A stretch of 64,000 nucleotides of DNA. Origin: Agreia sp. PsM10 (GTDB lineage: Bacteria; Actinomycetota; Actinomycetes; Actinomycetales; Microbacteriaceae). How positions within the stretch are numbered: position 1 is the first letter of the stretch; every line of letters begins with the position of its first letter. Under the pieces are notes generated by a model that saw only the letters and a list, made by a program, of their open reading frames with translations, was not told the origin of the DNA and made no database searches. Made by a program: the position numbers and the translations under genes. Positions 49,853 to 60,811 of the stretch are shown in pieces. The stretch lies in the NCBI RefSeq assembly GCF_030433855.1, contig NZ_JARUXC010000017.1, positions 1 through 64,000 of the forward strand. The letters are read 5' to 3'.

Positions 49853-50989
49853 ATGCCCGATTTCTCGTTCGACGACCTCCGCCGCTTTCCCGACGTCGAG
49901 GCCCCCAATCTGTTCGCGGTCGATGCCAGCGACAGGCTGATCCTCGATGAGGCGGCGGATGCGCTGGCCGCGGCCGCTCCCGGGGAGGTCGCCGTGCTGG
50001 GCGATCGCTACGGGGCGCTGACGCTCGGCGCGGCCGGGCTGCACGGGGCCACGCGCATCCGGGTTCAGCAGGACGCCCTGACGGGCGAGCGGGCCCTGGC
50101 CCGCAATGCCGACCGCACAGGGCTCGCCGACTCGTACGAGTCGATGCCGTTCGAGGCCTCGCTCGTCGAGGGGGCGACCGTGGTGCTCATGCAGCTGCCG
50201 CGTACACTCGCCGCGCTCGAGCAGGCGGCCGCGCTCATCGCCCGCCACGCGCATCCGTCGGTCGTGGTGTTCGCGGGCGGACGCATCAAGCACCTCTCGA
50301 CGAGCATGAACGACGTGCTCACCGCGCACTTCTCCGAGCTGCGCGTGAGCCTGGCGCGGCAGAAGTCGCGCGTGCTCGTGGCCTCCGCGCCGCGGGCCGA
50401 CGCCCAGTCCGACTCCGACGCCGCCGCGATGCGCACCGAGTTCCACGACGATATCCAGCTCTGGGTCGCCGCCCAGGGCACCGCCTTCGCGGGCACGAAG
50501 CTCGACATCGGCACCCGCTTTCTGCTGTCGTTCATTCCGCAGATGGCGGCGCACCCCGATGCGGCCATCGATCTCGGATGCGGCACCGGCGTTCTCGCCG
50601 CCGAGATCGCCCGGGCCCGGCCCGAGGCACGCGTGATCGCGAGCGACCAATCGTCGTCGGCCATCGCATCCGCGCGCGAGACGATGCGGCTCAATGGTCT
50701 CGAGGACCGAGTCGAGGTCGTTCGCGACGACGCGCTGCGCTCGCAGCCGGATGCGTCGGCCGGGCTGATCCTGTGCAACCCGCCGTTCCACGTGGGCGCG
50801 GCCGTGCATGCGGACGCCGCCCTCGGGCTGTTCCGCGACGCGGCGCGTGTGCTGGAGTCGGGCGGCGAGCTCTGGACCGTGTTCAACAGCTCGCTCTCGC
50901 ACGCAGCGACCCTGCGCAAGATCGTGGGACCGACCGACGTGGTCGGGCAGAACGCGAAGTTCACGGTGACGCGCAGCACGAGGCGCTGA
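49853..50989 (+). CDS. RsmC/RlmG-type methyltransferase
   Basis: 378-residue protein with two Rossmann-like halves, as in RsmC and RlmG. The active C-terminal half has AIDLGCGTGVLAAEIARARPEARVIASD and the NPPFH motif, which places guanine N2 methylation of rRNA as the likely reaction. The degenerate N-terminal half is a helper domain. ATG at 49853. The exact rRNA target cannot be told from sequence. Confidence 0.87.
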   Translation: MPDFSFDDLRRFPDVEAPNLFAVDASDRLILDEAADALAAAAPGEVAVLGDRYGALTLGAAGLHGATRIRVQQDALTGERALARNADRTGLADSYESMPFEASLVEGATVVLMQLPRTLAALEQAAALIARHAHPSVVVFAGGRIKHLSTSMNDVLTAHFSELRVSLARQKSRVLVASAPRADAQSDSDAAAMRTEFHDDIQLWVAAQGTAFAGTKLDIGTRFLLSFIPQMAAHPDAAIDLGCGTGVLAAEIARARPEARVIASDQSSSAIASARETMRLNGLEDRVEVVRDDALRSQPDASAGLILCNPPFHVGAAVHADAALGLFRDAARVLESGGELWTVFNSSLSHAATLRKIVGPTDVVGQNAKFTVTRSTRR

Positions 50990-51024
50990 CCCGCCCGCAG
51001 GCAAGGCTCAGGGAACCTTGCGCC

Positions 51025-51060
51025 GGTCGAGTAGCGAGGAACGAGCGCGTCGAGACCACC
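51025..51060. repeat. Dispersed palindromic repeat, family E
   Basis: The stretch GGTCGAGTAGCGAGGAACGA followed by GCGCGTCGAGACCACC is like a sequence I recall as very common between genes in Micrococcales genomes. It is imperfectly palindromic at its ends (GGTCGAG / GTCGAGACC). Only one copy is in this window. It lies just upstream of the GntR-Cache gene. Confidence 0.5.
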
Positions 51061-51095
51061 GGGTGATAGCGTCGAATCCAGCTCCGGGAGGCCAG

Positions 51096-52568
51096 ATGTC
51101 GCGTTCGCTCGGCCTCACCGCAGAGGCCCGCTCGGCCGTGTTCGCGCCGCTCGCCGGCCCCGGCCGCAGCGAGCAGGTCGAGCAGCGGATGCGCGAGGCC
51201 ATCGTGCTCGGTCTCGTCGGGCACGGCGAGCGTCTGCCCCGGGAGACGGAGCTGGCGCGGCAGTTCGGCGTGGCCGTGTCGACCGTGCGCGAGGCCCTCG
51301 ATGCGCTGCGCGGCCAGGGGCTCGTGCGCACGACCCGCGGACGGGACGGCGGCAGTTTCATCACCTCGAGCGCGGAGGGTCAGCGCGAGCTCCTCGCGGC
51401 CCGCCTCTCGCGCTTCTCGAGGGCTCAGCTGCACGACCTCGCCCTGCAGCTCGGTGCGATCAGCGGCTCCGTCGCGGCCACGGCGGCCACCCGTGCCACG
51501 AGCTCGGACCTCGCCAGCCTGCGCTCCATCACCGAGTCGATCGACTTCGGCGACGAGGTGTCCGCCCGTCGGGGCGAGGCCCTCTTCCGCGTCGAGGTCG
51601 CAGCGGCCGCCCAGTCGCCCCGGCTCGTGGCCGAGGAGCTGCGTCTGCAGGCCGAGTTCGGTCCTCTCCTGTGGTTCGGCATACGCGAGCAGGCCCTGCG
51701 CGACACGGTTCGCGACGCGCAGCTCGCGCTGGTCGACGCGCTCGCCCGGCGTGATGGCGCTCGGGCGCGGGCGATCGTCGACGAGCAGCTCTCGGCACTG
51801 GCCGCCGGCGCGATCTCCATCTCCGACGCGCACGCGCACGCGGTATCCACCGATGCCGCCCCTCGCGCGATCCTCACGCTCGACGACTGCGCATCCCTCG
51901 TCGTCGACACGCTCGACACCGTCTTCGAGGCGCTCGGCCGGGCCCGCGACGCGTTCGCGACCACCCTGGCGGGCCTCGCGCATCCGATCACCCGGGCCGC
52001 CCTCGACGACAGCGTGCGCGCCCTCGCGGAGGCCGAGCTGAGCGCCGGCGCCCAGCTCGTGATCGGGGCAGGCTTCGTCGCGACGCCGGGGTTCGTCGAC
52101 GACGCGGCCTGGCACCTCGCCTGGTGGGTGCGCCAGGCGGGAGACCCGCTCGTGCAGCGGCTCCCGCCCCGCCAGCTGGCCGTGGTCGAAGACCCGGAGT
52201 CCGAGTTCTTCCGTGACTACACCCGGCTCGAGTGGTGGCGCGGTGTGGCGTCGGGCGAGGCGAGCCACGTGACCGGCCCCTACGTCGACTACCTCTGCAC
52301 CGACGAGTTCATCCTGACCCTCACGATGCCCGTGCTCGACGCGTCGGGCGCGCAGCCCGGCGTCGCGGGGGTGGATGTGACGGTGTCGGCCCTCGAGGCC
52401 CGGTTCCTGCCGGCATTCGCCCGGCTCGGCGAGCGCGTCACGCTGGTGAACGCGGCATCGAGGGTCGTGCTGTCGACCGACCCGACGATCGCGGCGGGCA
52501 CGTTGCTTGCCGACGGCGGGGAGCGCGTCGCCTGCGGAACGCTGCCCCTCGCACTCGTGCGGCACTGA
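51096..52568 (+). CDS. GntR/FCD regulator with C-terminal Cache-like domain
   Basis: 490-residue one-component regulator, about twice the normal length. The winged helix (about 20-90) has LPRETELARQFGVAVSTVREAL. An FCD-like helical domain spans about 100-235. A third domain (about 290-490) resembles dCache sensors: EDPESEFFRDYTRLEWWRG, YVDYLCTDEFILTLTMPVLD and GVAGVDVTVSALE. No membrane helix or signal peptide is present, so this Cache-like domain is cytoplasmic, which is unusual. ATG at 51096 behind GGGAGG. It converges, with no gap, on the amine-catabolism operon and very likely regulates it, perhaps sensing an amine. Function is inferred. Confidence 0.82.
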   Translation: MSRSLGLTAEARSAVFAPLAGPGRSEQVEQRMREAIVLGLVGHGERLPRETELARQFGVAVSTVREALDALRGQGLVRTTRGRDGGSFITSSAEGQRELLAARLSRFSRAQLHDLALQLGAISGSVAATAATRATSSDLASLRSITESIDFGDEVSARRGEALFRVEVAAAAQSPRLVAEELRLQAEFGPLLWFGIREQALRDTVRDAQLALVDALARRDGARARAIVDEQLSALAAGAISISDAHAHAVSTDAAPRAILTLDDCASLVVDTLDTVFEALGRARDAFATTLAGLAHPITRAALDDSVRALAEAELSAGAQLVIGAGFVATPGFVDDAAWHLAWWVRQAGDPLVQRLPPRQLAVVEDPESEFFRDYTRLEWWRGVASGEASHVTGPYVDYLCTDEFILTLTMPVLDASGAQPGVAGVDVTVSALEARFLPAFARLGERVTLVNAASRVVLSTDPTIAAGTLLADGGERVACGTLPLALVRH

Positions 52569-54167
52569 TCAGTCGGTCGAGGTTCCGCGCTTCAGGGTCT
52601 GTCCGGTGAAGAACGCGGGGTTCACCGCGCGCATCACGAACATGAGCACGACGCCCGCGAGCAGCAGGAACGCGCCCAGGATGAAGACGAGTCCGAGGCC
52701 GCCGATGTTCGATCCGCTGCCGTAGTCGGGGTTCATCGAGTCGATGAGGGTGGTCACGAAGATGACCGCGAGGATGATGCCGCCGACGAGCGGGGCGAGG
52801 AACTTGAAGAAGAACGACCGCGCGCTCGAGAAGGCCTCTTTGCGGAAGTACCAGACGCAGGCCAGCGCGGTGACCCCGTAGTAGAAGCAGATCATCATGC
52901 CGAGGGTGAGGATCGTGTCGGTGAGCACGTCGTTCGACAGCACCCGCATCACCGCGTAGAAGCCCCATGCCACGACGCCGGCGATGATCGTGGCGAAGCC
53001 CGGCGACTTGAAGCGCGGGCTGATCGACGCGAAGCGCTTGGGGAACGCCTGGTAGTGGCCCATGGCGAGCATCGTTCGCGCCGGGCCCACGAAGGTCGAC
53101 TGCAGCGACGCGGCCGAGCTCGAGAGCACGGCCAGAGACAGCAGGATGGCGAAGGGTCCCATGATCGGGCCGGCCAGCGCCGCGAAGACGTTGCCCGAGA
53201 TGTCCTCGTTGCCGAGTCCGAGCTCGCCCGTTCCGATGCCCGAGAACATCAGCGACGCGACGGCGACGAGGATGTAGAGCACGAAGATGATCGCCACGGT
53301 CAGGGTGGCGGCCCGCCCGGGCGTGGTCTTCGGGTTCTTGGTCTCCTCGTTCATCGTGAGGGTCACGTCCCAGCCCCAGAAGATGAAGATCGAGAGCGAG
53401 ACGCCCGCGGCGAAGGCCGAGAACGAGGGAACGCCGAACGGGTTGAACCAGTCGAGGCTGAAGGGCGTGGCGTCGAAGGCCGAGCCGTCGGCGAAGTGCA
53501 CGATGGCGGCGATGGCGAACCAGACGAGCACCACGAGCTGGAATCCCACGAGCCAGTACTGCAGGGACTTCGTCGTCTCCATGCCCCGGTACGACACGTA
53601 ACAGGCGCCCACCATGAAGACCAGACAGGTGAGGATGTTGATGGGGATGTTGCCCGCCAGATCGGCGATGTCGGGGTTCTGGGTGATCTGAGCGATCGCC
53701 AGATACAGGAAGTCGACCGCGACCCCGGCGAGATTCGAGAGCACCACCACCGTGGCGACGATCAGACCCCATCCCCCCAGCCAGCCGAGCCAGGGCCCGA
53801 ATGCGCGGGTGGCCCAGGTGAACGACGTGCCGCTGTCGGGCATGGCGTTGTTCAGCTCGCGGTAGCCGAGGGCCACGAGCAGCATGGGCAGGAAGCCCAC
53901 GAGGAAGATGCCGGGCATCTGCGTTCCCACCGCGGCGGCCGTGGGGCCGAGCGACGCCGTGAGCGTGTACGCGGGCGCGATGCAGGAGATGCCGATGACG
54001 GTGGCTCCGAGCAGGCCGATCGAGCCCGCCGAGAGGCCCTTCGACGACAGGCCGGTCTTCGCATCCGCCGCGTCGATGAAGTCGACTCCCGCGTCGCCCG
54101 GGTTCCCTGAGCCTGTCCCACTCCCGTTCCCCGAGCCTGTCGAAGGGGCTGTGTTCTTGCGTGCCAT
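52569..54167 (-). CDS. APC-superfamily amino acid/amine permease
   Basis: 532-residue permease with 12 predicted helices. Helix 1 has the substrate-binding GATVIGISCIAPAYTLTASLG, and helix 6 has FIFWGWDVTLTMNEET. The N-terminal ~25 residues (APSTGSGNGSGTGSGNPGD) are coded by two copies of the dispersed repeat B. It is the last gene of the amine operon and probably imports the amine. The exact substrate (putrescine or another) is inferred. It begins 27 bp after the universal stress gene. Confidence 0.9.
   Translation of the reverse strand: MARKNTAPSTGSGNGSGTGSGNPGDAGVDFIDAADAKTGLSSKGLSAGSIGLLGATVIGISCIAPAYTLTASLGPTAAAVGTQMPGIFLVGFLPMLLVALGYRELNNAMPDSGTSFTWATRAFGPWLGWLGGWGLIVATVVVLSNLAGVAVDFLYLAIAQITQNPDIADLAGNIPINILTCLVFMVGACYVSYRGMETTKSLQYWLVGFQLVVLVWFAIAAIVHFADGSAFDATPFSLDWFNPFGVPSFSAFAAGVSLSIFIFWGWDVTLTMNEETKNPKTTPGRAATLTVAIIFVLYILVAVASLMFSGIGTGELGLGNEDISGNVFAALAGPIMGPFAILLSLAVLSSSAASLQSTFVGPARTMLAMGHYQAFPKRFASISPRFKSPGFATIIAGVVAWGFYAVMRVLSNDVLTDTILTLGMMICFYYGVTALACVWYFRKEAFSSARSFFFKFLAPLVGGIILAVIFVTTLIDSMNPDYGSGSNIGGLGLVFILGAFLLLAGVVLMFVMRAVNPAFFTGQTLKRGTSTD
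54101..54149. repeat. Dispersed repeat B inside APC permease gene
   Basis: Two direct copies, GGTTCCCTGAGCCTGTCC from 54101 and GTTCCCCGAGCCTGTCGAAG from 54126, lie in frame in the start of the permease gene. On the coding strand they read PSTGSGNGSGTGSGN. Confidence 0.9.
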
Positions 54168-54194
54168 GGTGTCGATCCTTCTGGTGAGGAGGCG

Positions 54195-55052
54195 CTAGTC
54201 GGCGTCGTTGGGAACGACGATGAGGGGAACGGGAAGGGAGTGCAGCATGCGGTTCGCGGTGGCGCCGAGGAAGATGCGACTGGGCGAGGCGAGCCTCGAC
54301 GATCCGACGAAGGCGATCTCGTCGTCTCGCCATCCGAGCGCCTCGACCGCGGCCTCGACGCTCGGGCCCTCGGCGACCTCGGTAGACAGAATGCCCTCCG
54401 TCCTCTCCCGCTCGGAGAAGTAGTCGAGCACGGTCAGCAGGTGCTCGTCGCTCGAGATCGGGCGGGAGTCTCCCGCTCCGACCTCGACCAGGGTCACGAA
54501 GCGCAGCTCCACGTCGAGGCCCTCGGAGATCGCCACCATCGAGTCGAGCAGGGCCTCCCAGCCCGGACGGGTGCCGATGGCGCAGGTGATGCGGCTGATG
54601 CGCTCCGGTGCTCGGTAGCCCCGGGGTGCGAGCGCCACCGGAACGGGCGAGGCGTGCAGCAGGGCGTTCGCGACGCTGCCGATCGAGAAGCGCTTGAGGA
54701 TTCCCGTTCGGGCGGCGCCGACGACGATGCGGTCGGAGTCGAACGCCTCGGCTGCCTCGATCAGGCCCTCCGACGTCGACTCGGCCCACAGCACGTGGAT
54801 GGTGGCCGTCACGTCGGCGGGCACATTCTGGATGGCCTCATCCAGCCACAACTGCGCCTGCTGGGCTATGATGCCCTCGTAGTCGGCCGCCGATGCCGGC
54901 ACCTTCGCGGGTACCGCCGTGCTCTGCGGCAGCACGAGGCAGATGCGCAGCTCGGCCTCCGTGAGCCGCGCGAGCGCGATGCCGAGCTCGACGGCCTCGC
55001 GGCCTCGCTCGGTGGCCTCGTATGCCACGACGTAGTTCGCTGTGCGGGTCAC
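54195..55052 (-). CDS. Universal stress protein, tandem UspA domains
   Basis: 285 residues with two UspA domains (about 1-145 and 150-283). Both have an ATP-type glycine motif: VGAARTGILKRFSIGSVANALLH and VGSSRLASPSRIFLGATANRMLH. The GTG at 55052 starts the protein. It lies inside the amine operon between the oxidase and the permease. Co-transcription suggests a role in handling oxidase by-products or in controlling the permease, as proposed for other transporter-linked Usp proteins. That is inference. Confidence 0.9.
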   Translation of the reverse strand: MTRTANYVVAYEATERGREAVELGIALARLTEAELRICLVLPQSTAVPAKVPASAADYEGIIAQQAQLWLDEAIQNVPADVTATIHVLWAESTSEGLIEAAEAFDSDRIVVGAARTGILKRFSIGSVANALLHASPVPVALAPRGYRAPERISRITCAIGTRPGWEALLDSMVAISEGLDVELRFVTLVEVGAGDSRPISSDEHLLTVLDYFSERERTEGILSTEVAEGPSVEAAVEALGWRDDEIAFVGSSRLASPSRIFLGATANRMLHSLPVPLIVVPNDAD

Positions 55053-55071
55053 TTCGGTGCTCCTTCCTTTT

Positions 55072-55125
55072 CGTTCCCTGAGCTTGTCGAAGGGAATCTC
55101 TCCCCTTCGACACGCTCAGGGAACG
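55072..55125. repeat. Dispersed repeat B between tynA and usp gene
   Basis: Arms CGTTCCCTGAGCTTGTCGAA (from 55072) and TTCGACACGCTCAGGGAACG (55106-55125) form a long, nearly perfect hairpin in the 79-bp gap. It splits the amine operon and could set different mRNA levels on each side. Confidence 0.9.
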
Positions 55126-55131
55126 GGTGGA

Positions 55132-57108
55132 TCAGTGGTCGTGGGTCAGGCCGCCGTCGGTGCTCGGCGCGTGGTGGTCGTGTGCGGCGTGGTCGTGCCC
55201 GGGTGCGCAGTGCGCGCCGGTGCTCGGCTCCACGTCGATCGACGGGTTGCGGTCGAAGAACGAGACCGGCTTCATCCAGAACGACACGGTGTCGCTCGGC
55301 ATGATCGGCCAGTCCTCCTGGCGGGTGATGTGGTGGATTCCGAAGACGTACCAGAGCACGACGTCGGTGTTGCGCACGGGGCGTTCCGCCTCGATCCATT
55401 CGGGCAGGCCGTGGTCGATCGAGCTCTGGTTCACGAACTCGCCGGCCGGCCAGCGCTCGTTCTCGTCGTTCGGCGTCACCCACACCGTGTGGCCGATCAC
55501 CTGGGCGCGCTCGAGCACGGCCGAGCCGGGCGCGAAGAACGAGGGGATGGCTCCGCCCGGAACCAGCTTGTACGCCACCTGGTTTCCGATGGTGTTGCGC
55601 TTGTTCTCGTTCACGACCTTCCAGGCGCGCTGCGTGTTCCAGTCGAAGTCGTCGTGGCCCTCGACCTCGATCGGCGTGTTCGCCTGCACGAGCGCGAGGC
55701 CGTGCGGGTTCTCGTCGGAGATCGGCACGATCTGCGTCTCGGAGCGGTACACCGTGTTCTCGGTGCCGTCGATGTCGAGGTCCATGCGGGCCACGATGAA
55801 GTGCTGGTGGAACGGCGCGTAGGTGCGGTTGTCGACGAGGGTTCCGTTGGGGTGCGCCTGGCCCTCGTCGATGTGGGTGACCACCATGATGCCGGTGGCG
55901 CGCACCTCGCACTCGATGTTGCCGTCTTGATAGAAGCGCCAGTAGACGAGGTACTCGTAGTTGGCGACCGTCACATGGAACGAGACGACGAGCCGGCGCA
56001 TGCGGCGCACCTCGGCGCCGGCGTCGTGGTCGACGTGCTTCCACAGAACCGCGTTGTCCTCCTCGTGGATGCAGAACGCGTTCGGGATCGCGTAGGGCTC
56101 GCCTTTCGAGTCGTGCATCACGGCGTCGATGTAGCGGATCTCACCCAGGCAGTCGCATCCGAGTTCGAGCGATGTGGTCATGAAGCCGAGGCCCCACTCG
56201 CCGATGTCGAAGGCCGTGCGGCGGAAGTGGTCGACGCTGGGGTCGCGGTAGGGCACGACCATCTCGGAGAACGAGAGGCGGTTCGCGATGGAGCGCACCT
56301 CGTCGCCGTCTTTGTACGAGATGGAGTGCAGGGTCATGCCCTCGCGGTAGTTGAAGCCCACCCGCAGCGACCAGTTCTGCCACTCGATGAGGTTGCCGTC
56401 GACTGAGAAACTGGGACCTTCGGGCTGCACGATGTCGAGGGGCTTGAGCGGCGGGCGCTTGTAGTGCTCGCGGATGCGCTCGGGAATGAGGTGCGGCACG
56501 TACTCGCCCATGATCTGCGGCGTCTCGACCGTGAACGTGTCCTCGATCTCGAGCAGCTCCATGGTGTTCACGTCGATCACGCAGTGGAAGCCGTTGACCG
56601 GGCCGGCGTAGGGGTTGGCGCCGGGCTGCGACTTCACCCAGGTGTCGCTCCAGCCGAGGCGTCGGCCCTTGTACTTCTCGGGGATCACGGCTGCGCCGTA
56701 CGTCCACGTGTCCATGAAGACGAGTTCGAGGTCGGTGATGCCGCGGTTCGCGAGGGCGGCGATGACCTGGGGGTTCGCGCGCAGCGCCGCGTCGGCCTCT
56801 TCCCACTCGTCGACGGTGAAGTTGGCCTGCACGTCGGGCACGTGCGTCCATTCCAGCAGAGCGTCGGATGCGAGCGACACGACCGCGATGTACGTCGCGT
56901 TCTCGCTGCGGTTCAGCACCACGAGGCGCGCACGGCGCTCGGGAACCGTGCCGTCGGCCTCGAACTGCTTCACGGCCGCCTTCGACGGCTCGACCATCTC
57001 GATCGAGGCGAAGCGCCAGCCGGGGCCGACGCCCTTCTCGCGTTTCAGAATCGCGGATGCGGCGCGGAACTCGTCGGCGTTCAGCGGGTCGAGCGGATGG
57101 AATGTCAT
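55132..57108 (-). CDS. tynA: Copper-containing primary-amine oxidase
   Basis: 658-residue oxidase that converts a primary amine to the aldehyde, H2O2 and ammonia. The topaquinone precursor is Y384 in TVANYEY and the catalytic base is D301 in FDIGEWGLG. The copper ligands are H434 and H436 in FHQHF and H592 in GIHH. These positions are close to those of the Arthrobacter globiformis enzyme. The C-terminus carries a His-rich tail (CAPGHDHAAHDHHAP and GGLTHDH). No signal peptide is seen, so it is cytoplasmic. Its substrate may be putrescine, tyramine or another amine. Confidence 0.95.
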   Translation of the reverse strand: MTFHPLDPLNADEFRAASAILKREKGVGPGWRFASIEMVEPSKAAVKQFEADGTVPERRARLVVLNRSENATYIAVVSLASDALLEWTHVPDVQANFTVDEWEEADAALRANPQVIAALANRGITDLELVFMDTWTYGAAVIPEKYKGRRLGWSDTWVKSQPGANPYAGPVNGFHCVIDVNTMELLEIEDTFTVETPQIMGEYVPHLIPERIREHYKRPPLKPLDIVQPEGPSFSVDGNLIEWQNWSLRVGFNYREGMTLHSISYKDGDEVRSIANRLSFSEMVVPYRDPSVDHFRRTAFDIGEWGLGFMTTSLELGCDCLGEIRYIDAVMHDSKGEPYAIPNAFCIHEEDNAVLWKHVDHDAGAEVRRMRRLVVSFHVTVANYEYLVYWRFYQDGNIECEVRATGIMVVTHIDEGQAHPNGTLVDNRTYAPFHQHFIVARMDLDIDGTENTVYRSETQIVPISDENPHGLALVQANTPIEVEGHDDFDWNTQRAWKVVNENKRNTIGNQVAYKLVPGGAIPSFFAPGSAVLERAQVIGHTVWVTPNDENERWPAGEFVNQSSIDHGLPEWIEAERPVRNTDVVLWYVFGIHHITRQEDWPIMPSDTVSFWMKPVSFFDRNPSIDVEPSTGAHCAPGHDHAAHDHHAPSTDGGLTHDH

Positions 57109-57121
57109 GCGGAGTTTCCTT

Positions 57122-58462
57122 CTATCGGACCTGTGAGCGGACGGCGTCTTCGAGCACGCCGATCCCCTCGAGCAGGAGGGCGTCGTCGATGACGAGCGAG
57201 GGGAGCAGGCGGATCACGTTTCCGTAGGTTCCGCAGGTGAGGATGATGACGCCCGCCTCGAGGGCCGCAGCGGCCACGCGTTTCGTGATGTCGGCATCCG
57301 GTTCTGTGGTGCCCGGCCGCACGAATTCGATGGCGAGCATCGCGCCGCGGCCCCGCACGTCGCCGATCACGCCGGTGGCGTCGGCCAGCGCCCGCAGCCG
57401 CGGCACCACGATGTCTTCGATGTGGCGCGCGCGGCCGGCCAGGTCGTGCTCGCGAATCTGGGCGATGGATGCGACGGCCGCGGCACACGCGATCGGGTTG
57501 CCCCCGTAGGTGCCTCCCAGGCCGCCGGCGTGCACGGCATCCATCAGCTCGGCGCGACCGACGACGGCCGCCAGGGGAAGCCCGCCCGCGATGCCCTTGG
57601 CGAGGGTCATGAGGTCGGGCACGATGCCCTCGTCGTCGCTGGCGAACCAGGAGCCGGTGCGGGCGAAGCCCGTCTGCACCTCGTCGGCGATGAAGACCAC
57701 GCCGTTGGCCGTGGCCCAGGCGCTCAGCGTGGGGAGGAAGCCCGGAGCGGGCACGATGAAGCCGCCCTCGCCCTGGATGGGCTCGATGATCAGGGCAGCG
57801 ACCTGGTCGCCGCCCAGCTGCTTCTCGATGGCCAGGATGGCGCGGTTCGCAGCGTCGACCCCCGAGAGGCCCGCCTCGTCGCGGAACGGGTACGACATGG
57901 GCATGCGGTAGACCTCGGGCGCGAACGGGCCGAAGTTGGTCTTGTAGGGCATGGCCTTGGCGGTGAGCGCCATCGTGAGGTTCGTGCGGCCGTGGTAGGC
58001 GTGGTCGAAGGCGACGACCGCGTCGCGACCCGTGGCGAGGCGGGCGACCTTGATGGCGTTCTCGACCGCCTCGGCACCGGAGTTGAACAGTGCGGAGCGC
58101 TTCTCGTGGTCGCCCGGCGTGAGCTCGGCCAGCAGCTCGGCGACCTCGACGTAGCCCTCGTAGGGCGTGATCGTGAAGCATGTGTGCGCGAAGTGCGTGG
58201 ACTGCTCGGTGACCGCCGCCGCGACTGCCGGGTTGGACGCTCCGACGCTGGTGACCGCGATGCCGGCGCCCAGGTCGATGAACGAGTTGCCGTCGACATC
58301 GACGACGACCCCGCCATCGGCATCCGCCGCGTAGACCGGAACGAGAGACGAGACGCCCGCCGAGACGGCCTTGCGGCGGCGCTCGGTGAGGGCGGCCGAC
58401 TTCGGTCCCGGGAAGGTGCCCGTGATGCGCCGCTCCTGCGGCAGGCGATGCGTGATGGTCAT
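57122..58462 (-). CDS. gabT: 4-aminobutyrate (class III) aminotransferase
   Basis: 446-residue PLP enzyme. The cofactor residues are D260 in FIADEVQTGFARTG and K289 in LAKGIAGGLPL, with NSGAEAVENAIKVAR binding the phosphate. It most resembles GabT, which moves the amino group of GABA to 2-oxoglutarate and gives succinate semialdehyde. The ATG at 58462 follows the aldehyde dehydrogenase stop by 8 bp. In this operon it would take the GABA made from putrescine. Other omega-amino acids are possible substrates. Confidence 0.92.
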   Translation of the reverse strand: MTITHRLPQERRITGTFPGPKSAALTERRRKAVSAGVSSLVPVYAADADGGVVVDVDGNSFIDLGAGIAVTSVGASNPAVAAAVTEQSTHFAHTCFTITPYEGYVEVAELLAELTPGDHEKRSALFNSGAEAVENAIKVARLATGRDAVVAFDHAYHGRTNLTMALTAKAMPYKTNFGPFAPEVYRMPMSYPFRDEAGLSGVDAANRAILAIEKQLGGDQVAALIIEPIQGEGGFIVPAPGFLPTLSAWATANGVVFIADEVQTGFARTGSWFASDDEGIVPDLMTLAKGIAGGLPLAAVVGRAELMDAVHAGGLGGTYGGNPIACAAAVASIAQIREHDLAGRARHIEDIVVPRLRALADATGVIGDVRGRGAMLAIEFVRPGTTEPDADITKRVAAAALEAGVIILTCGTYGNVIRLLPSLVIDDALLLEGIGVLEDAVRSQVR

Positions 58463-58470
58463 GGGAGTTC

Positions 58471-59910
58471 CTATTCCAGCGACGACATCACGTGCTTGAT
58501 GCGCGTGTAGTCCTCGACGCCGTACATCGACAGGTCCTTGCCGTAGCCCGAGTACTTGAATCCGCCGTGCGGCATCTCTGCCGTCAGCAGGATGTGGGTG
58601 TTGATCCACACGGCCCCGAAGTCGAGGTCGCGCGAGACGCGCATCGCGGTGGCGTGGTCCTTCGTCCAGACGCTCGAGGCCAGGGCGTAGCGAACGTCGT
58701 TGGCGAGCTCGACGGCCTCGTCTTCGGTCGCGAACTTCTGCACCGTGATGACGGGGCCGAAGGTCTCCTCCTGAACGATGTCGTCGCTCTGCAGCACGTT
58801 CGTGACGACGGTCGGCTCGAAGAAGAAGCCGGTGTCGCCCACCCGGTGGCCGCCCGTGGTGATGACGGCGTGGTCGGGAAGCGACTCCACTTTTGTCACC
58901 ACGTCGGTGAAGTGGTTGATGTTGTTCAGCGGGCCGAAATAGTTCTCGCTGTCGTCGGCGCTGCCGGTCTTGCGCTCTTTGGCTTCGCTCGACAGTGCGT
59001 CTACGAGCTCGTCGTGGATGGACTCGTGCACCAGCACGCGGGTGATCGCCGTGCAGTCCTGGCCGGCGTTGTAGAACGAGAAGTCGGCGATCGCCGCGGC
59101 GGTCTTGGCCACGTCGACGTCGCCGAAGACCACGGCGGGCGCCTTGCCGCCGAGCTCGAGGTGGGCACGCTTGAGGGTCTTCGCGGCTCCGGATGCGACG
59201 GCCATGCCCGCGCGCACCGATCCGGTGATCGAGACCAGGCCGGGGGTGGGGTGATCGACGATCGCCGCGCCCGTGGCCCCGTTGCCGAGCACGATGTTGA
59301 GCACGCCGTCGGGCAGGATGCCCTGGCTGATGCGGGCGAGCTCGAGGGTGGACTCCGGGGTTGTGTCGCTGGGCTTCAGCACGATGGTGTTGCCGGTGGC
59401 GAGGGCGGGTCCGATCTTCCAGATCGCCATGAGGAAGGGGAAGTTCCACGGGGTGACCTGGCCGACCACGCCGATGGGCTCGCGGCGAACATAGGAGGTC
59501 GTGCCCTCGATGTACTCGCCGGCGCTCTTGCCCTCGAGCAGGCGGGCGGCTCCGGCGAAGAAGCGGATCTGATCGGCGCCGGCCTCGACCTCGTCGGTGC
59601 GGATCGTGTCGCGGGGCTGGCCGGTGTTGCGGTGCTGCGCTTCGACGAGGGAGTCGGCGTTCGCCTCGATGGCGTCGGCGAGCTTCAGCAGCGCGAGCTG
59701 CCGGGCGCCCGGCGTGAGTCGTGCCCAGGGCTTGAATGCGGCTTTCGCGGCCTTCATGGCGACATCGACATCGTCTGCAGTGGAGACGGGCGCCTGCGCC
59801 ACGGTCTCGCCTGTGGCCGGATTCACGATGTCGAGCAGCTCTGAGCCCTCGGGAGTGACGAACTGGCCGTTGATGAAGTTCTGGAGCGTGGGCGTGGACA
59901 CGGATCTCAT
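58471..59910 (-). CDS. Aldehyde dehydrogenase, aminobutyraldehyde type
   Basis: 479-residue NAD(P) aldehyde dehydrogenase. The catalytic Glu is in LELGGKAP and the catalytic Cys is in FYNAGQDCTA, a form typical of gamma-aminobutyraldehyde dehydrogenases (PatD). ATG at 59910; a GTG at 59901 has better spacing from AGAGG and may be the true start. It is the first gene of the operon and would oxidise the aldehyde made by the amine oxidase. A palindrome lies about 70 bp upstream. Confidence 0.92.
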   Translation of the reverse strand: MRSVSTPTLQNFINGQFVTPEGSELLDIVNPATGETVAQAPVSTADDVDVAMKAAKAAFKPWARLTPGARQLALLKLADAIEANADSLVEAQHRNTGQPRDTIRTDEVEAGADQIRFFAGAARLLEGKSAGEYIEGTTSYVRREPIGVVGQVTPWNFPFLMAIWKIGPALATGNTIVLKPSDTTPESTLELARISQGILPDGVLNIVLGNGATGAAIVDHPTPGLVSITGSVRAGMAVASGAAKTLKRAHLELGGKAPAVVFGDVDVAKTAAAIADFSFYNAGQDCTAITRVLVHESIHDELVDALSSEAKERKTGSADDSENYFGPLNNINHFTDVVTKVESLPDHAVITTGGHRVGDTGFFFEPTVVTNVLQSDDIVQEETFGPVITVQKFATEDEAVELANDVRYALASSVWTKDHATAMRVSRDLDFGAVWINTHILLTAEMPHGGFKYSGYGKDLSMYGVEDYTRIKHVMSSLE

Positions 59911-59980
59911 CCTCTGCGTCGAGTGGCGGAACAACCTGATCGGCTGGGGCCAGTCTGGCACTGCCCGCGCCGTCGCGGCG

Positions 59981-60002
59981 ATCGAATCGGTAAAGATTCG
60001 AT
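59981..60002. promoter_or_regulatory. Candidate operator upstream of amine operon
   Basis: ATCGAATC (59981-59988) and GATTCGAT (59995-60002) form a perfect inverted repeat around 6 bp. It lies 71 bp before the aldehyde dehydrogenase start. Size and place suit a GntR-type operator, but no binding data exist. Confidence 0.5.
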
Positions 60003-60013
60003 TCCGAATGTTA

Positions 60014-60310
60014 TCACCGCTCGGCGACGGGAATCCATCGATTTCCGACCCTGCGGCTGAGTTCCGGCGAGCCGAGCTCTGCCAGTTCGCCCGCCAGCCC
60101 GAAGATGCCGAGCGCGATGCTGCGCGCATCCGGGTCGTCGTCGCCGGTGAAGCGGATGACGACCCGCGCCTCGCCGCGCACCACCGCGATGCTGGACGCC
60201 TCGACGATCGCCAGCGTGCGCGCGTCGTCGGTGAGCTCGGGCAGCAGTCGCGCCGCGGCGACGCCGGGGCGGAGCACGCCGATGGCGGCGGAGAACCGGT
60301 AGGAGGGCAC
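60014..60310 (-). CDS. Small hypothetical protein
   Basis: 98 residues from the GTG at 60310 (VPSYRFSAAIGVLRPG). The sequence has an alternating pattern with IRFTGDDDPDARSIALGIFGLAGELAELGS and ends RWIPVAER. No domain is recognised and no membrane helix is seen. Coding is supported by codon pattern and by its fit between its neighbours. A longer TTG-started form would run into a repeat hairpin and is rejected. Confidence 0.55.
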   Translation of the reverse strand: MPSYRFSAAIGVLRPGVAAARLLPELTDDARTLAIVEASSIAVVRGEARVVIRFTGDDDPDARSIALGIFGLAGELAELGSPELSRRVGNRWIPVAER

Positions 60311-60350
60311 GCAGCGAGTATGCCACCCGCGCCGCTCGTCGCCCCTTGAA

Positions 60351-60434
60351 CGCCGCAAGCGCCGAACGCGGGTGTTCGTGCCGAGCGCGTGGATGCCGCC
60401 GCCGCGTTGGGCGGGAACACACGCGTTCGCCGCT
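60351..60434. repeat. Dispersed hairpin repeat A, copy 3
   Basis: Arms CGAACGCGGGTGTTC (60363-60377) and GAACACACGCGTTCG (60415-60429) pair with one mismatch. The preceding CGCCGCAAGC is shared with copy 4. It fills the gap between two small minus-strand genes, ending 3 bp from the stop of the upstream gene. Confidence 0.8.
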
Positions 60435-60436
60435 GA

Positions 60437-60811
60437 TCAGGAGACGGTTGTTCCCCGGGAGCGCCGCTGGAGCCTCGCGACCGTGTCCTCCGCGAGGTCT
60501 GCGTAGGCGGCGGTCATGGCCGCCGATCGGCGGAGAGGACCCTCGTCGCTCGCCATGCTCAGTTCCACGAGGGTGGGGTGGCCGTCCTCGAGCGTGACGA
60601 CGACATCGAGGTTCATGGGCAACGAGGAAGGAAGGGCGGTCGTGTAGCCGCCCGAGCCCAGTTGCACCTGAATGACGCGGTCGGTTCGGTTGAACACGTG
60701 GGCTCGGCGGTCGTATGCGTATGCGGCGACGACGTCGAGTGCCTCGATCGGATCGAGCGGGGTCTCGTAGGACGCAGAGAAGCGAAGGGGTGCATCCTCG
60801 GGATTCGTCAC
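60437..60811 (-). CDS. Small hypothetical protein
   Basis: 124 residues from the GTG at 60811 (VTNPEDAPLRFSASYE). The plan FSASYETPLDPIEALDVVAAYAYDRRAHVFNRTDRVIQVQLG, then VVVTLEDGHPTLVELSMA, looks like a compact alpha/beta domain. No family is recognised and no signal peptide is present. It is flanked on both sides by copies of hairpin repeat A. Confidence 0.6.
   Translation of the reverse strand: MTNPEDAPLRFSASYETPLDPIEALDVVAAYAYDRRAHVFNRTDRVIQVQLGSGGYTTALPSSLPMNLDVVVTLEDGHPTLVELSMASDEGPLRRSAAMTAAYADLAEDTVARLQRRSRGTTVS

Follow-up and report, generated by a model that had tools for sequence, protein, structure and literature searches.

Cache domains are mostly known as the outside sensors of membrane receptors. 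For the polyamine chemoreceptors TlpQ and McpU, the passages of PMC6234866 on ligand binding describe how TlpQ holds the primary amine by Tyr208, Asp210, and Asp239. A Cache protein adjoining a transcription factor was described in Actinobacteria, and the passages of PMC10104139 that deal with it propose an intracellular amine sensor in an operon with a GntR regulator (named in the legend of Fig. 4), and name neither the ligand nor the genes controlled by this inside version of Cache. Oxidase-first breakdown of putrescine is already known: a passage of the review PMC9397018 names a "direct oxidation pathway" for putrescine, and the section of PMC3534580 on Arthrobacter Rue61a proposes a putrescine oxidase that shares 76% identity with that of Rhodococcus, followed by aminobutyraldehyde dehydrogenase (ABALDH), transamination, and succinate semialdehyde dehydrogenase (SSADH). 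Here we analyzed a 64,000-nucleotide stretch of the 4.01 Mb genome of a soil-type Agreia bacterium (the window, on contig C17), in which a regulator combining GntR, FCD, and Cache domains converges with a minus-strand run of genes for ABALDH, 4-aminobutyrate (GABA) transaminase (GabT), a copper amine oxidase (CuAO), a tandem universal stress protein (Usp), and an APC-superfamily permease. The enzymes are of known kinds, and the new part is the fused switch with its predicted DNA site. Taken as a whole, the locus is probably an operon for the direct oxidation of a putrescine-like diamine, repressed by the fused amine sensor at the operator predicted at 59991-60014.

A GntR-FCD-Cache fusion in Agreia

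The regulator matched GntR and FCD with 57.3 and 32.8 bits (both over the gathering cut-offs) and PDC/Cache weakly (24.4 bits, below Pfam's 27), and no hydrophobic stretch was found in it. The closest named relatives of the window are Agreia, the regulator being 95-96% identical to that of Agreia sp. Leaf283. The preliminary description of this DNA had called the regulator unusual in build, and the comparison bears this out: among 47 Microbacteriaceae loci only five, all from Agreia, had the fused form, and 42 had the split form, in which a GntR-FCD gene adjoins the gene of a stand-alone Cache protein. Of the 42 split pairs, 13 have a 4-nt overlap between the stop of the first gene and the start of the second, as the script placed it. 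Loci L040-L079 were taken from the top of a ranking, hence a non-random set, and the fractions refer to these samples. Across the wider class, 50 of 394 genomes had matches to the Cache profile, at 59 places; 40 loci were read, the rest being already included, partial or left out. Of these 40, 37 were split, among them L162 with its GntR on the far side. L170 (genome G260, another family) has a clear separate GntR-Cache fusion in an open frame of 501 codons, close to an aldehyde dehydrogenase. L165 was excluded as a fusion because only part of GntR lies in the Cache frame, and in L150 no GntR adjoined Cache on the 6.5 kb stretch.

When 88 Cache domains were placed on a tree, the Agreia fusions grouped as one clade (100/100) inside Microbacteriaceae, with weak support for its exact sister (88/27). 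Where FCD domains would carry their three His residues, by our assignment, the window protein has R165, Q209, and Q231. Of 87 rows, 30-36 have His at each of these positions, a pattern that fits a sensor role shifted to the Cache domain in Agreia. The likeness to the pair of PMC10104139 is a Cache next to a transcription factor, with amine sensing proposed there. The difference is that here both are one polypeptide, and the text of PMC10104139 (Fig. 4B and Dataset S2 lying outside the comparison) names no fusion, operator, or target genes. In the part of another Cache paper, PMC11245519, that was covered, the word GntR was not found, and a literature search outside which most subscription journals lay gave no title or abstract opening naming a GntR-Cache fusion or this operator. 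The fusion argues for the split neighbours working together and, if the broader view given below is true, would establish that GntR and Cache form a single complex also where they are separate proteins.

The predicted operator and its likely targets

Among 87 loci, 53 had the GntR/Cache pair opposite a four-gene ABC transporter, whose parts (one representative each) had PotA, YdcS, PotB, and PotC as their best models, in most cases under the equivalog cut-offs; 14 were near other aldehyde dehydrogenases, the five of Agreia were at the CuAO block, and 15 were at none of these. Such neighbours, polyamine-type transporters there and an amine-oxidase operon here, suggest the likely class of the ligand. 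A divergent region was obtained from 50 of the 53 transporter loci (some of the 50 being near-copies), and these promoters share the palindrome AACAT-N10-ATGTT, with at most one mismatch in 24/50 (shuffles 0.2) and at most two in 37/50 (shuffles 1.75). The sole place in the window with at most one mismatch was 59993-60012, in the 103-nt gap before ABALDH (0.15 expected; 15 of 100 shuffles have one), and the place is present before ABALDH in the window and in the five other Agreia loci, L033-L037.

The 50 promoters, not one of them from Agreia, gave a matrix that was run on the window, the fetched loci, and the 44 places in the whole genome that match the palindrome with at most one mismatch. 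Its top in the window was 59991-60014 at 16.4, with the second place at -2.5, and on 20 random sequences of 64 kb it reached 13.7 at best. When the regions were divided, those outside the family (19) gave a matrix with the same place on top (18.9, next -1.3), and those inside it (31) gave a matrix that scored the place at 12.5 (next 1.9). The predicted operator was also the top matrix place in L033-L037, and six loci that have a CuAO but lack the regulator had no comparable site (best 4.1). With column-permuted matrices, 0/200 reached the observed lead (largest 15.7 vs 18.9). Among the 44 near-matches, the site at 59991 was the highest on the 20 core columns; of two others with a fair score, C18:30303 is intergenic, its neighbour being dehydratase-like by eye, and C20:152559 lies inside an open frame, neither of them amine-metabolism-like. 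Since the outlying best match of the matrix in the window is at the operon promoter, the fused regulator most likely controls the operon. The preliminary description had proposed this control from adjacency alone, and the promoter site now links the two. The shared palindrome is a directly testable DNA target.

Several points weigh against this assignment. The window site at 16.4 lies under the training sites (25-37, 5th-95th percentile), one half of its palindrome has a mismatch, and 9/200 column-permuted matrices likewise peaked in this AT-rich gap. In addition, its lead among the 44 near-matches is only 2.3 bits (11.2 vs 8.9), and many training promoters come from close relatives and are not independent. 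We consider it very unlikely that the regulator acts elsewhere in the genome and converges with the operon by chance of gene order. Its convergent rather than divergent placement would agree with this, as would the closest relative block, L081, where no GntR-Cache gene lies on the stretch covered, and the block of other families, which stands beside a weakly PmfR-like regulator; yet the operon promoter carries the family operator pattern, at the highest of the 44 genome near-matches, and the linkage of regulator and block holds in the window and L033-L037, one clade on the tree.

Other candidate sites were tried. A perfect repeat, ATCGAATC-N6-GATTCGAT, overlaps the same place as the operator and is kept at 7 of 8 in L033, L034, and L037, and no split-pair promoter had more than one copy of GATTCG/CGAATC; for these reasons the AACAT-type palindrome was preferred. 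A FadR-type pattern, T-N-GT-N(1-4)-AC-N-A, had no match upstream of the operon or the regulator in the window, and its one match was in L037. The regulator is like the FadR subfamily of GntR in having a helix-turn-helix and FCD, but AACAT-N10-ATGTT, the operator predicted here, differs from the GTM-N0-1-KAC consensus published for that subfamily (PMC4494728).

If control is as we propose, the regulator, a single polypeptide arising from the fusion of a DNA-binding protein with a Cache amine sensor, would bind as a dimer to the palindrome at 59991-60014 and block the promoter, and an amine in the Cache pocket (Y396/D398/D427 and aromatic residues) would release it. Repression rather than activation is suggested by the practice of GntR regulators. 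We give an even chance to the broader view that the actinobacterial cytoplasmic Cache is a polyamine-sensing detachable subunit of a GntR repressor governing polyamine uptake via a conserved non-canonical operator, and that Agreia fused both and re-aimed them from the transporter to the oxidase operon.

Among the split pairs, a sub-group (L050, L052, L053, L056, L058, L060, L062, and L137) is accompanied by genes for an acyl-CoA dehydrogenase and a class III CoA-transferase; most of its members also have an APC permease and an aldehyde dehydrogenase, which was SSADH-like in the single case tested, L053. This gene set suggests that the sub-group may serve a C5 (glutarate/aminovalerate) route.

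The Cache pocket and its likely ligand

A profile of 24 Cache domains was searched against dCache chemoreceptors of the PDB and matched PctA (1.2e-9), TlpQ (1.2e-8), McpX (3.6e-7), McpU (7.6e-6), and PctD (0.002), some of these receptor names being our own assignment to PDB entries. The three residues by which TlpQ holds the amine align with Y396, D398, and D427 of the regulator. Among 88 sequences, D398 and D427 were present in 88/88 and Y or F at 396 in 85/88; position 380 was W in 85/88 (F or Y in the rest) and position 381 aromatic in 87/88. The regulator thus matches the Tyr-Asp-Asp primary-amine set of the TlpQ/McpU receptors (binding-site passages of PMC6234866), which are membrane chemoreceptors with outside sensors, whereas the Agreia regulator has no hydrophobic stretch and a DNA-binding domain attached. 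By our own position mapping, the C-terminal Asp of the dCache_1AM criterion (PctD D235, here D427, 88/88) and its aromatic pair are also present. The position of PctD M215, described as exclusively hydrophobic in dCache_1AM, corresponds to T408, which is Thr in 88/88 if our alignment via PctA holds. With Thr where a hydrophobic residue is required, we do not file the regulator as dCache_1AM, only as working alike; so the Cache domain appears to work like a polyamine-sensing dCache. AlphaFold2 gave no reliable model in support of this, with mean pLDDT of 60.0 for the whole regulator (10 sequences) and 49.8 for Cache alone (8 sequences) and the pocket region mostly under 50.

We regard it as unlikely that the ligand of the Cache domain is an amino acid or omega-amino acid (e.g. 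GABA) instead of an amine. In favour of this, the amino-acid receptor PctA was the strongest match in the PDB, and the position of D398 is Asp in amino-acid and polyamine receptors alike, with Tyr in PctD and Ala in McpX (residue numbers from the motif passages of PMC10104139, mapping our own). At the position that holds the carboxylate in such receptors, the window protein has Leu, and Arg occurs there in 3/88 sequences, which speaks against an amino acid. For PctA we presumed the residue number of this Arg. An amine therefore stays the preferred ligand.

Enzymes of the block and the proposed pathway

The CuAO scored 895.4 bits with PRK11504 (cut-off 651) and aligned nearly full-length with the phenylethylamine oxidase 1rjo, presumably of A. 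globiformis. By this alignment it has Tyr384, Asp301, His434, His436, and one of His592/593, which we take to be the cofactor Tyr, the catalytic base, and the copper ligands (His434, His436, and His592 or 593), respectively. No hydrophobic stretch usable as a signal was found in the CuAO, which fits a cytoplasmic enzyme; the location given in the preliminary description has this absence as its sole basis. GabT was over the cut-off of both PRK06058 (765.1 bits) and TIGR00700 (576.6 bits), and ABALDH was over that of the PRK13473 subfamily (648.8 bits, cut-off 615). In the Usp protein, a search for the Usp pattern G-2x-G-9x-G(S/T) found none.

These genes probably degrade putrescine-like amines to succinate, judging by their families. 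The permease would import the amine, and the copper oxidase would turn the diamine into 4-aminobutyraldehyde, ammonia, and hydrogen peroxide; ABALDH would then yield GABA and GabT succinate semialdehyde, and an unlinked SSADH candidate on contig C31 of the same genome (561.7 bits, below the cut-off of 646.35) may finish the route to succinate. The chemical steps would be the same as those proposed for direct oxidation of putrescine in Rue61a, in the passage cited above, with a copper/quinone oxidase here and a Rhodococcus-type putrescine oxidase there. The route from an amine through an aminoaldehyde and a GABA-type acid to succinate semialdehyde had been put forward in the preliminary description; it gains from the cut-offs passed by GabT, from the SSADH-like genes of relatives, and from the AguA/AguB-like genes of one relative, and its ABALDH step is weakened by the TIGR03374 equivalog. 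The Rhodococcus-type putrescine oxidase is presumably a flavin enzyme.

For comparison, CuAO matches were present in 120 of 394 class genomes and 37 of 150 family genomes, and the 22 oxidase loci read are the closest ones, a non-random sample. ABALDH of at least 55% identity was near the oxidase in 10 of the 22 (L081, L105, L106, L109, L111, L112, L113, L115, L117, and L120). L105, L106, and L109, of the same class, have ABALDH, CuAO, Usp, GabT, APC, and a second aldehyde dehydrogenase, and L111, L112, and L115 have GabT, a second aldehyde dehydrogenase, ABALDH, and CuAO. The second dehydrogenases of L105 and L109 were best matched by SSADH models and that of L111 is SSADH-like (533-547 bits for the three, below the SSADH cut-off of 646.35). 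Moreover, the L105 run goes on with an AguB-like gene (172.6 bits) and an AguA-like gene (281.9 bits), each under its equivalog cut-off. Since these would make putrescine from agmatine, they are the best evidence for the block being for putrescine. Altogether, the comparison with relatives supports a putative putrescine-type direct-oxidation route. The closest block outside Agreia, L081 (76-78%), is ABALDH-CuAO-Usp-APC, and neither GabT nor a GntR-Cache gene was found in the 19.5 kb stretch read there.

Other results count against a putrescine route. ABALDH scored 527.5 bits with the TIGR03374 equivalog, below the cut-off of 909.3, and the nearest solved structure of the CuAO is a phenylethylamine oxidase. 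Twelve of the 22 closest-oxidase loci had no adjoining ABALDH of at least 55% identity, nine of them (L102-L104, L107, L108, L110, L114, L116, and L121) with oxidases 60-71% identical, where the L121 oxidase is in two pieces and the L103 contig starts at the oxidase; and 0/18 further loci with 37-45% identical oxidases (L083-L100) carry such an ABALDH. Because a close ABALDH is so often absent beside the oxidases, the CuAO may have a wider or other substrate. The operon could accordingly be one for aromatic or other monoamines (phenethylamine, tyramine, histamine, or ethanolamine), the oxidase giving the aldehyde and the dehydrogenase the acid, with GabT co-regulated for a different substrate. 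We find this unlikely: it would agree with the phenylethylamine oxidase structure, with the related CuAOs often lacking ABALDH/GabT, and with L081 lacking GabT in the stretch read, whereas ABALDH, GabT, and the second dehydrogenase recur with CuAO in six loci (L105, L106, L109, L111, L112, and L115), all three second dehydrogenases tested are SSADH-like, AguA/AguB-like genes occur in L105, and the regulator pairs stand opposite polyamine-type transporters. A putrescine-like diamine is thus our preferred candidate for the oxidase substrate.

In L105 and L109, from another family, the enzyme block stands beside a weakly PmfR-like regulator and not a GntR-Cache one (L105:5549-7102 and L109:12499-14034; 104 and 75 bits, cut-off 800).

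Gene layout and conservation of the block

All six genes were open, in the order that the preliminary description had given, and each matched its family (Table 1); its coordinates were confirmed, as was the place of the Usp gene inside the run. The gaps within the minus-strand run are small, as it had said (8, 13, 79, and 27 nt). The stop codons of permease and regulator abut with 0 nt between them, again as described; in the five other Agreia loci 31-96 nt separate them, and the 0-nt gap is peculiar to the window genome. The search for the six-gene block in Microbacteriaceae that had been proposed found it complete in L033-L037, so that block and regulator are present in all six Agreia genomes seen, with the full gene order kept and the five minus-strand proteins 93-99% identical. 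From spacing and conservation, co-transcription of the minus run appears likely. A sigma-70 scan of 50900-60500 gave no promoter-like site (0.3 expected from shuffles).

Table 1. Coordinates of the genes and predicted elements in the window
Feature	Position	Strand	Details and basis
Fused regulator	51096-52568	+	GntR helix-turn-helix at residues 25-83, FCD 122-231, C-terminal Cache ~260-490; Pfam
Cache sensor domain	51873-52565	+	Pocket candidates W343, W380, Y396, D398, D427 (regulator numbering); 88-sequence column counts
APC-superfamily permease, probable amine/amino acid uptake	52569-54167	-	PF13520, PF00324
Tandem universal stress protein (Usp)	54195-55052	-	PF00582, two stretches
Copper amine oxidase (CuAO)	55132-57108	-	PRK11504; alignment to 1rjo
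4-Aminobutyrate transaminase GabT	about 57122-58462	-	PRK06058, TIGR00700
Aminobutyraldehyde dehydrogenase (ABALDH), first gene of the minus run	58471-59910	-	PRK13473
Predicted GntR-Cache operator	59991-60014	.	81-104 nt upstream of the ABALDH start; top matrix match

A 114-codon open frame (60014-60358, minus strand) ends at the predicted operator, and 4 of the 5 other Agreia loci have a called frame (cluster c33) that was paired with that of the window by position.

Other amine routes in the same genome

The preliminary description had held that the oxidase route replaces the glutamylated one. This is unsupported, since the same genome has a glutamylation-type cluster on C31 (L172:7979-13035, about 368978-374034). 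Its order is a glutamine synthetase (GS)-like gene, a gamma-glutamyl-GABA-hydrolase-like (PuuD-like) gene, an aldehyde dehydrogenase, a short-chain dehydrogenase, and GntR, and an ethanolamine-permease-like gene adjoins it. The GS-like gene had type III glutamate-ammonia ligase as its best model (238.9 bits) and scored 189.7 bits with the gamma-glutamylputrescine synthetase model (cut-off 650); the proteins of the cluster were below the cut-offs of their models, the short-chain dehydrogenase excepted. No AguA agmatine deiminase was found in the genome, and a search for a YdcS-type binding protein, the one polyamine binding protein sought, gave weak matches only (27.9 bits).

A second CuAO, L091 (C20:421634-423562), is 39% identical and lies in another gene context, near an APC-type permease. 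Further, a flavin amine-oxidase-like protein (L126:1665-3152; C20, about 386164-387651) matched PF01593 in permuted order, with the C-terminal part of the family at its N terminus, which is lipoprotein-type by eye, and the nucleotide-binding motif in the middle of the protein.

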